In this document: positions 59,662-64,000 of the stretch, one piece after another | How the letters are laid out: each line of letters starts with the position of its first letter | Numbering within the stretch: position 1 is the first letter of the stretch | Assembly: GCA_027484605.1 (NCBI GenBank) | Contig: JAIXSR010000035.1 | Span: 39,089 to 103,088 of the forward strand | Reading direction: 5' to 3' | Origin: Hyphomicrobiales bacterium | GTDB lineage: Bacteria > Pseudomonadota > Alphaproteobacteria > Rhizobiales > Beijerinckiaceae | DNA length: 64,000 nt | Notes under the pieces: generated by a model | What the model was told of the DNA's origin: nothing | Databases searched by the model: none | What the model saw: the letters and a program-made list of their open reading frames with translations, nothing else | Program-made: the position numbers and the translations under genes

Positions 59662-62600
59662 TCAATAGGGCTTGATGTCGAGAACGCCCGGAATGGTCGA
59701 AAGCTGGGCCATATGCTCGCCCGCAAGGTCGAAACGGCCCTTCAGGCGCAGATCCACCTCGCCGCCATCCGACAGCATGACGGTGAGAGAAACCTCGCCA
59801 TCGCCGCCCCGGCGCAACACCCTGTCCAGCGCCGAGAGCGTCGCCTCGCCCCGCTCGCGCGCCGCTTGCGGATCGGCGAGGAAGACCCGGATGCCTTTCT
59901 GCGTCCGTTGCAGGGCGCGCTCCAGCGGCTCCATGTCGAGCACCCGCAGGCGCAGATCCTCGCCATCCACCGAGCCGGCCAGGGTGAGGAACAGGGCCGT
60001 GCCCGCCTCAAGCATCGTCCGGTATTTCGCAAGTCCCTCCGAAAAGACCATGGCCTCGAACTGGCCCGTGCGGTCGGAGAATTGCGCAATCCCGATCTTG
60101 TTGCCGTTCCGCGTGCGGCGGATATCGACATCGAGCAGCGTCGCCGCCATCCGGGCATGGGTGGCCCCGTTCTTCACCGCCTGCTGGAACCGCGCGAAAT
60201 CGGTCAGGCTGGCCTTGTCCAGCAGGGTCTCGAACTGGTCGAGCGGATGGCCGCTCAGGAAGAACCCGACGGCGGAATGCTCCCGTCGCAGCCTTTCCGT
60301 CAGCGAGAGCGGCTGGGCCTCGGGCAGGACAAGGCCGGCATCGGAATCGCCGCCGAACAGCCCGCCCTGCCCGCTTGCCAGTTCGGCCTGATGCGCCTGG
60401 GATTCAGCGACGATCGCCTCCAGCCCCGCCAGCAAACGCCCGCGATTGGGCTCAAGCGAGTCGAAGGCGCCGGCCGCGATAAGCTGCTCCAGGGTGCGCT
60501 TGTTGACCAGCTTCGGATCGACCCGCCGCGCGAAATCGGTCACCGAGCGGAACGGCCGGTCGCCCCTGAGCGCGACCAGCGCGCGCGCCGCCTCGACCCC
60601 GACGCCCTTGATCGCCGCCAGCGCATAGAGAATCGCCCCGTTGCGCACGCCGAATTTCACCCCGGAACGGTTGATATCCGGCGGCTCCACCCGGATGCCG
60701 AGACGCTGCGCCTCCCGCCGGAATTCAGCCAGCTTGTCGGTATTCGACAGGTCGAGGCTCATCGAGGCGGCGAGGAACTCGACCGGGTGATTGGCCTTGA
60801 GATAGGCCGTCTGGTAAGCGACCACCGCATAGGCAGCGGCATGGCTCTTGTTGAAGCCGTAATCGGCGAACCGGGCGAGCAGGTCGAAGATCGAATCCGC
60901 ATCCGCCTCGGCGACACCGTTCTTCACCGCCCCCTCGACGAAGCGCGCGCGCTGCGCATCCATCTCCGCCTTGATCTTCTTGCCCATCGCGCGGCGGAGC
61001 ATGTCGGCCTCGCCCAGCGAATAGCCGGACATGACCTTGGCGATCTGCATCACCTGTTCCTGATAGACGATGACGCCGCAGGTCTCCGCAAGGATGGGTT
61101 CGAGCAGCGGATGGGCATAATCGGCGGCGCGCCGTCCATGCTTCACATCGCAATAGACCGGGATATTCGCCATCGGCCCGGGCCGGTAGAGCGCCACCAG
61201 CGCGATGATATCCTCGATCCGGTCCGGCTTCATGTCGACAAGCGCGCGGCGCATCCCGCCCGATTCCACCTGGAACACGCCGACCGTTTCCCCGCGCGAG
61301 AGCATGGCATAGCTCCTCGCATCGTCGAGAGGGATCTGGAGCAGGTCGACCGGGATGCCCTGTTCCGCCAGCAGGTCGACCGCGCCCTGCAGGATCGTCA
61401 GCGTCTTGAGGCCGAGAAAGTCGAACTTCACCAGCCCCGCCGGCTCGACCCATTTCATGTTGAACTGGGTGACAGGCATATCCGATTTCGGATCGCGGTA
61501 GAGCGGCACAAGCTCCTCGAGCGGCCGGTCACCGATCACGATGCCGGCGGCATGGGTCGAGGCATGCCGGAAAAGGCCCTCGAGCCGTTGCGCGATATTG
61601 AGCATGCGGCCGACCGCCTCGTTCTCCTCGGCAGCCGCCCGCAATTGCGGCTCCTCGGCGATCGCCTTCTCGAGCGTGATCGGATTGGCCGGGTTCTGCG
61701 GCACCAGCTTGGTCAGCCGGTCCACCTCGCCATAGCGCAGGCCAAGGACGCGCCCGACATCGCGCATCACCCCGCGCGCCAGCAGCGTCCCGAACGTGAT
61801 GATCTGCGCGACGCGCCCCTCGCCATAGCGCTCCACGACATAGCGGATCACCTCGTCCCGCCGGTCCTGGCAGAAATCGATGTCGAAATCCGGCATCGAC
61901 ACGCGTTCCGGGTTGAGGAAGCGCTCGAAGAACAGGCCGTAGCGAAGCGGGTCCAGATCGGTGATGGTCAGCGAATAGGCCACCAGCGAGCCCGCCCCGG
62001 AACCGCGCCCCGGCCCGACCGGAATGCCCTGCGCCTTGGCCCATTTGATGAAGTCGGCCACGATCAGGAAATAGCCGGGATATTGCATCCGCTCGATCAC
62101 GCCGAGTTCGAAGGCCAGCCGCTCCTCGTAATCGGTCACCGAAAGGCCCGCCGCCGGGCCATGCGCTGCGAGCCGGACGCGAAGCCCCTCCTCGGCCTGG
62201 CGCCGCAATTCCAGCGCCTCCGCCCCCTCCTCAGAGCCGGAGGTGAAACGCGGCAGGATCGGCTTGCGTGTCCGCGGCCGGACATGGCAGCGCTGCGCAA
62301 TCTCGACGCTGGCTTCCAGGGCCGCCGGCAGATCGGCGAACAGGGCCATCATCTCGGCGCGCGTCTTGAAGCGATGCTCCGGCGTCAGCCGCGGGCGCTC
62401 GGCCTCGTCGACCGAATGCCCGCCGGCAATGCAGAGCAGCGCATCATGCGACTCGAAATCCTCGGCCTTGCCGAAATGCACATTGTTGGCCGCGACGACG
62501 GGCAGCTTCCCGCTCTCGGCGAAATCGAGCAGCCTTTCCTCGATACCGGCCGTCTCGCGCAGGCCGAACCGCTCGATCTCGAGGTACAGGCGGTCCCGGA

Positions 62601-63114
62601 AGAGCCCCGTCAGGGCCGCGAGCCGCGCCGCCGCCAGATCGACCCCGCCGAGCCCGAAAGCCCGGTTGACCGGGCCGGCCGCCCCGCCGGTCAGGGCGAT
62701 CAGCCCGCCGGTCCGGCCGCGCAGCCGGTCAAGCGGCAGATGCACGCCCTCATGGGCGGGGGAATCAAGGAAGGCCCGGCTCGAAAGGGCCATCAGGTTG
62801 GCATAGCCCTCTTCCGAGGAAGCCAGCAGCACGAGGACACCGCGCGCCTCGTCATGGAAGTTGGGCCGGTTCCGGGCCGGCGGCCGGTCGCCGAAATCGA
62901 CCAGCATCTCGATCCCGACAATCGGCTGGATCCCCAGCCCGACCATCTTCTCGGAGAATTCCAGCGCCCCGAACAGGTTGTTCGTATCCGTCAATGCGAG
63001 GGCGGGCATCTTGTCCGCGGCCGCCAGCTTGCCGAGATCGGCGATCCGCAGCGCCCCCTGCAGGAGCGAATAGGAGGAATGCACATGCAGGTGGATAAAG
63101 CCCGGGCCCGACAC
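59662..63114 (-). CDS. dnaE: DNA polymerase III alpha subunit (DnaE1 type)
   Basis: [20 protein letters not shown] domain, [56 protein letters not shown] start with AGGGGAGG SD. Confidence 0.97.
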
Positions 63115-63130: not shown

Positions 63131-63232
63131 TCAGATCAGCGGCCAGTTCGTCCCCACGCCCGACCAGACCACCACCATAGCGAAGAATGCGCCAATCGAC
63201 GCCAGTTCGATCAGGTCTTCCACAGCTCGCAT
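63131..63232 (-). CDS. 33-aa single-TM peptide upstream of dnaE (MRAVEDLIELASIGAFFAMVVVWSGVGTNWPLI)
   Basis: SD AGGGGG 5 nt before ATG; hydrophobic core; stop 16 nt before dnaE start. Confidence 0.55.
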   Translation of the reverse strand: MRAVEDLIELASIGAFFAMVVVWSGVGTNWPLI

Positions 63233-63254
63233 CACAGCCCCCTGCTCTCTTGCG

Positions 63255-63269
63255 TTCTGTTTCTGTTCT
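63255..63269. promoter_or_regulatory. Candidate LexA (SOS) box, GTTC-N7-GTTC, over a putative -10
   Basis: GTTCTGTTTCTGTTC; minus-strand TTGACA (63295-63290) and TAGAAC (63271-63266) with 18-bp spacer. Confidence 0.45.
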
Positions 63270-63381
63270 AATTCATGATTTGTTCTCATGTCAAGCGGTG
63301 CCCCAACAGGGTGGTGTCTCAGTTTCAAATTCCGCAAAAAAGACCCAGCCACATAACGGCATAAAGATTTCTTTATGACTC

Positions 63382-63412
63382 TTGACGAGCCGAGAATGTC
63401 AGCTATGCTGAC
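63382..63412 (+). promoter_or_regulatory. Candidate sigma70-like promoter with overlapping operator-like palindrome
   Basis: TTGACG-N16-TATGCT; GTCAGC-TAT-GCTGAC overlaps the -10. Confidence 0.35.
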
Positions 63413-63413
63413 G

Positions 63414-63445
63414 CAAACAAAAAGGGCCCCACCGAAGCGGGGCCC
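63414..63445 (-). terminator. Intrinsic terminator of the YegP-like gene
   Basis: Minus orientation GGGCCCC-GCTTCGGT-GGGGCCC-TTTTTGTTTGC. Confidence 0.85.
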
Positions 63446-63468
63446 AAGTCAAGGCAAACCGGTTGAGT

Positions 63469-63639
63469 TTACCGCTCGGTAACGGACGCGTTGTAGCATC
63501 CCTTAACGAGACCGATCGCGTGCAGGCAGTCGGACTTATTGAAGTACCCCTCGCCGGAATTGGCGATCTTGAGATGGTTGGCCGCGAAGAGCGTCCAACG
63601 CCAGTAGGACGCAGTGTCCTTATACAGCACGAAATACAT
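63469..63639 (-). CDS. YegP/DUF1508-like small protein
   Basis: MYFVLYKDTASYWRWTLFAANHLKIANSGEGYFNKSDCLHAIGLVKGCYNASVTER; SD GGAGG; followed by strong terminator. Confidence 0.75.
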   Translation of the reverse strand: MYFVLYKDTASYWRWTLFAANHLKIANSGEGYFNKSDCLHAIGLVKGCYNASVTER

Positions 63640-63649
63640 GGAGACCTCC

Positions 63650-63862
63650 ATGAGTGGTGAGTTCAAGCGATACCTGTTTGAATATCGCCACGACAATGCG
63701 GAATGGGCTCTTGAGGTGTTGGCCACCTCGCCAGAAGACGCCAAACAACGTCTAAAGGCCCTAACCTGGGCTCGCTATGAGGGCGAGATCAGCGCTAAGG
63801 TTTCCATTCCGGGCGGCGGGATCATCTCGCGAGTTCTCCGCGCCATCGGTCTGAATACCTGA
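63650..63862 (+). CDS. Small hypothetical protein, accessory/phage-like context
   Basis: MSGEFKRYLFEYRHDNAEWALEVLATSPEDAKQRLKALTWARYEGEISAKVSIPGGG...; SD GGAG 6 nt before ATG. Confidence 0.65.
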   Translation: MSGEFKRYLFEYRHDNAEWALEVLATSPEDAKQRLKALTWARYEGEISAKVSIPGGGIISRVLRAIGLNT

Positions 63863-63887
63863 TTCGCGACTTTAGTATAAGAGCCGG

Positions 63888-64000
63888 TCAAGCGGCCGCC
63901 CGCTTCTTGTACGGCCCGCGCTTTTTCGGCTGCACGTCCGCATCCATCGCCGCAAGCAAGTCTTCCCACGACATAAGCCGATCAGAAACGCCCGCTGCCA
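63888..64000 (-). CDS. Basic-tailed hypothetical protein, probably truncated by window end
   Basis: Open frame ...AAGVSDRLMSWEDLLAAMDADVQPKKRGPYKKRAAA*; not in supplied ORF list. Confidence 0.4.
   Translation of the reverse strand, partial: AAGVSDRLMSWEDLLAAMDADVQPKKRGPYKKRAAA

Follow-up and report, generated by a model that had tools for sequence, protein, structure and literature searches.

A LexA-boxed 33-residue peptide gene upstream of dnaE in a Hyphomicrobiales genome is probably a divergent orthologue of the Caulobacter division inhibitor SidA

In a contig of a Hyphomicrobiales bacterium, directly upstream of dnaE, lies a gene for a 33-residue peptide whose promoter carries a perfect LexA motif. 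Considered as a whole, the locus is best explained as a divergent orthologue of sidA, repressed by LexA, whose product would block cell division by way of FtsW; we put the probability of this reading at roughly 0.8. The 64,000-nucleotide stretch of DNA that was analysed, referred to below as the window, holds the following elements of the locus.

59662-63114, minus strand: dnaE, DNA polymerase III alpha subunit, full-length at 1150 aa with a GTG start at 63114 (Pfam PHP, DNA_pol3_alpha, DNA_pol3_finger and HHH_6)
63131-63232, minus strand: 33-aa single-TM SidA-like ORF MRAVEDLIELASIGAFFAMVVVWSGVGTNWPLI, recognised by coding constraint and by profile homology to Caulobacter SidA-locus peptides
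63238-63243, minus strand: Shine-Dalgarno sequence AGGGGG, 5 nt 5' of the ATG
63254-63268, minus strand: LexA box GAACAGAAACAGAAC, a perfect GAACN7GAAC that overlaps the -10 element
63265-63270, minus strand: -10 element TAGAAC, four bases of which lie within the LexA box; TAGAAC is kept in the genus sequences
63271-63285, minus strand: second, degenerate LexA box GAACAAATCATGAAT with one mismatch, 17 nt upstream of the first
63289-63294, minus strand: -35 element TTGACA; TTGAC(A) upstream of the box is kept across the genus

Read along the minus strand, the order is thus TTGACATGAGAACAAATCATGAATTAGAACAGAAACAGAACGCAAGAGAGCAGGGGGCTGTGATG, the 33 codons, the stop, 16 nt and the dnaE GTG. A first-pass annotation of the same DNA had described a promoter TTGACA-N18-TAGAAC, that is, with an 18-nt spacer, a GAACN7GAAC motif over its -10 element, the AGGGGG, a 33-aa ORF with a single hydrophobic segment, and dnaE beginning 16 nt past the stop; every one of these elements is present where it was placed. 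The hydrophobic segment is LASIGAFFAMVVVWSGV, predicted to span the membrane. The second LexA box was absent from that annotation, and its spacing is that seen in Caulobacter and Brevundimonas, where the boxes come in pairs phased by 17-18 nt.

A bare motif with eight fixed bases carries little weight by itself. There are 2 matches to GAACN7GAAC in the window against 1.15 expected by chance, so that the earlier estimate of about one per 64 kb was correct, as was the accompanying caution that the argument must rest on placement. We nonetheless reject a chance motif, since placement and conservation together remove the doubt that the count leaves: in 15/15 genus members an exact box lies in the 130 nt that precede the peptide, whereas 0.12% of background 130-nt stretches contain one. 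Across the whole genome the pattern has 77 matches, compared with 47 for a reversed control pattern. The genome encodes one LexA, with two overlapping GAACN7GAAC boxes directly upstream of lexA, and in other stretches of the genome the same motif precedes recA, uvrA, rmuC and imuAB-dnaE2 (recA, uvrA, rmuC and imuA-imuB-dnaE2 were recognised by us from their translations). Therefore GAACN7GAAC is this genome's own LexA box, and the copy at 63254-63268 is a putative operator of the host LexA.

Two of these other sites are of some interest in their own right. The imuA-imuB-dnaE2 mutagenesis cassette has its own LexA box, GAACATAACAGGAAC, at L121:3204-3218 (contig C37 of the window genome, G000). 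A LexA-type box, GAACAAAAAATGAAC, lies between def/fmt and an rmuC-like gene (L123, G000 C66:23902), which suggests that RmuC belongs to the SOS regulon in this genome.

The peptide gene is, judged by its pattern of substitution, a genuine coding sequence. Among 14 genus members pN/pS is 0.48 in the annotated frame, versus values of 1.03 and 0.98 for the two alternative frames, and this constraint, along with conservation across families, rules out a spurious ORF. The window peptide matched nothing in Pfam or NCBIfam, and the window matched no RNA family in Rfam. The first-pass annotation had proposed conservation in relatives as a check, and in the genus peptide and box both prove to be conserved: each of the 15 members open to examination retains the peptide together with the exact box. 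Peptides at the same place before dnaE were found at 11 loci in the family, 11 in the order and 7 elsewhere in the class (Brevundimonas halotolerans is one of the class-level genomes with the locus), and many genomes of the family and order, as well as members of several other groups within the class, have comparable short hydrophobic ORFs with LexA boxes upstream of dnaE. Several relatives are without the gene before dnaE, as are most of the sampled class-level genomes at their dnaE.

At some of the order- and class-level loci, proximity to a box guided the choice among short hydrophobic ORFs, and the box counts at those levels are therefore partly conditioned on the selection. The genus counts, the survey of the family Caulobacteraceae and a genome-wide profile search are less affected by it. 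In that search, a profile built from 29 such peptides was run against 61 whole genomes and returned 36 matches, 32 of them before dnaE; the matches include genomes outside the profile (G055, G049, G027 and G016). One match, in a genome of the same family (G031), lies away from dnaE:

L251 from position 783, C1 around 992682-992783: SidA-like peptide of G031, found by the genome-wide profile search

This copy is about 159 kb from dnaE and has two one-mismatch LexA boxes, and there is none at the dnaE of that genome. The peptide is therefore separable from dnaE.

SidA of Caulobacter is a 29-aa inner-membrane SOS protein that acts on FtsW (PMC4211646). In the Caulobacteraceae, a peptide of 29-31 aa stands behind LexA boxes at the same place upstream of dnaE. 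The NCBIfam model for SidA, NF033228, was tested on the loci L138, L197, L233 and L235. Its cut-off is 35 bits, and the Caulobacter peptides before dnaE score 72.3, 72.0 and 59.7; the 29-aa LexA-boxed peptide before dnaE in Caulobacter is SidA itself. Published locus tags agree with this placement: sidA is CCNA_02004 (PMC10769358), dnaE is CC1926 and lexA is CC1902 (PMC1839093), and lexA is also CCNA_01979 (PMC11535069), so that, with the offset of 77 between the two lexA tags applied to CC1926, dnaE would be CCNA_02003 and stand next to sidA. A Brevundimonas peptide at the same locus reaches 20.5 bits, below the 35-bit cut-off, and the equivalog model thus covers little beyond Caulobacter.

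By this narrow standard the window peptide falls outside the SidA model: it gives no match to NF033228 even at E 5, whereas membership takes 35 bits, and none of the 61 genomes of its order passes the cut-off. Comparison of profiles gives a different result. When the profile of the window's order is applied to the Caulobacteraceae peptides, 16/17 outscore all 1000 shuffles made of each, and a profile-profile alignment of the two groups with hhalign yields 95.4% and E 1.7e-8. The reverse search, of a Caulobacter profile against individual peptides of the family and order, is weak for several members, and the direct identity between the window peptide and SidA is about 20%, in hydrophobic peptides of 29-33 aa. 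Since the order profile finds the Caulobacteraceae peptides while NF033228 is blind to the order, we read the window gene as a divergent orthologue that fails a narrow equivalog model.

In a wider sense the window gene resembles sidA in several respects. Both genes stand directly upstream of dnaE, both have GAACN7GAAC-type LexA boxes at the promoter, both products have a single hydrophobic segment in a length of about 30 aa, and the peptides align over 29 columns with a shared core pattern, [ED]..(L)AS..xF..M. The window peptide differs in its length of 33 aa, its low identity, its longer C-terminal tail (..TNWPLI) and its being missed by NF033228. Because gene neighbourhood and regulation, as far as the DNA tells, are the same and homology is detectable, the window ORF is probably a divergent SidA orthologue and more than a mere analogue. 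The comparison with SidA made in the first-pass annotation, which had gone as far as an analogous peptide, is accordingly strengthened by the shared synteny, the LexA box and the profile alignment. No SidA-like peptide strings occur in the paper texts searched, a set without the primary 2011 description of SidA. At the level of the order and class the relationship rests on short hydrophobic sequences and a partly box-guided choice of ORFs; with that reading of the counts, a SidA-type damage brake is probably common to many Alphaproteobacteria.

By analogy with SidA, we infer the following sequence of events for the window peptide. LexA, seated on the box over the -10 element, would repress the promoter; DNA damage would activate RecA, LexA would be cleaved, and the promoter would be freed. 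The 33-aa single-pass peptide would then be made, enter the inner membrane and bind FtsW (and its partners FtsI and FtsN), and septal constriction would be blocked until LexA returns. A candidate target is present, as the genome encodes an FtsW-family protein (5e-99, 331.9 bits, just under the cut-off of 337.5). Caulobacter also has DidA, another small damage-induced peptide with one TM segment, which inhibits the FtsW/FtsI/FtsN complex as is proposed for the window peptide, but DidA is 71 aa long, SOS-independent and activated by DriD, with no LexA control and at another locus. Conceivably the gene instead encodes a different sort of SOS-induced membrane peptide, for example one that is membrane-active in the manner of TisB or DinQ, and no division inhibitor; E. 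coli does have short SOS peptides with a single TM segment that act in other ways (DinQ, PMC3567139). We consider this unlikely, since synteny, LexA control as read from the promoter, length and profile homology all indicate SidA.

The position of the ORF raises a different alternative, namely that it is a leader peptide or uORF that tunes dnaE expression through translation, with an amino-acid sequence that matters little. In the window 16 nt separate the ORF from dnaE, and in the genus the two lie close together; in Sinorhizobium meliloti a translated ORF, sORF25, has been found by ribosome profiling in the 5'-UTR of dnaE1, and the authors consider uORF functions for sORFs in 5'-UTRs, the one before dnaE1 among them (PMC10117765). 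Yet the amino-acid sequence is constrained and conserved across families, the distance from stop to dnaE ranges from tens to more than 300 nt, and the G031 peptide sits with its two near-LexA boxes 159 kb away, all of which makes a leader function very unlikely. Under the SidA reading, sORF25 may instead be the same gene as the window peptide, by its position: like the latter, it is an alphaproteobacterial ORF ahead of the gene for the replicative polymerase, with Ribo-seq indicating its translation, although the text consulted gives no sequence, LexA control or link to SidA (PMC10117765).

The region between dnaE and its upstream neighbours contains two further features that bear on how dnaE is transcribed.

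63301-63320, minus strand: 20-bp repeat GAGACACCACCCTGTTGGGG, a 95% match to L249:824-843, just past lolD on contig C74
63424-63445, minus strand: intrinsic terminator upstream of the promoter, with a 9-bp stem and a T-run

Between the upstream terminator and dnaE, the promoter with the LexA box gives the best match and is the only good candidate, and no terminator was found between peptide and dnaE. SOS control of dnaE from this promoter is therefore structurally plausible, given the 16-nt gap, the lack of a terminator within it and the terminator upstream. In close relatives within the genus lolC and lolD lie directly upstream of the locus, and lolCD transcription could read through to dnaE. 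The window genome has its lolD on a separate contig (C74); past it come the 20 bp GAGACACGACCCTGTTGGGG and then foreign or hypothetical genes and an IS1-type transposase (L249:824-3328, G000 contig C74), and on the window side a DUF1508 gene and a strong terminator lie upstream of 63301-63320. This looks like a mobile island (window 63301-64000; L249:824-3328) inserted between lolD and the sidA-dnaE promoter and flanked by the 20-bp repeat. That the box chiefly targets dnaE, inducing the replicative polymerase in SOS while the peptide rides along, would fit the short gap, the arrangement of terminators and the displacement of lolCD by the island, but it is the least probable of the alternatives, as the peptide is conserved, the gaps are longer elsewhere, the relocated G031 copy has near-boxes of its own and dnaE goes unmentioned in the main text of two Caulobacter SOS papers.

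A broader proposal, which we offer tentatively and hold to be doubtful as it stands, joins the SidA reading to the organisation of the locus. The SidA-type checkpoint, annotated only in Caulobacter, may be ancestral to much of the Alphaproteobacteria, and the peptide gene may be the leading cistron of a sidA-dnaE unit with a LexA box, in which one damage-controlled promoter couples the division brake with the supply of replicative polymerase. In the window genome, the island having removed lolCD read-through, dnaE may depend on that promoter entirely.

To our knowledge, SOS division inhibitors have been thought unrelated from group to group. If relatives of SidA sit at this one locus beside dnaE across the Alphaproteobacteria, the class would share a damage checkpoint that can be tested, and small ORFs that have stood unassigned, such as sORF25 of S. 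meliloti, would be explained as well. It raises the question, moreover, of why the gene for a brake on division stays beside the gene for the replicative polymerase.
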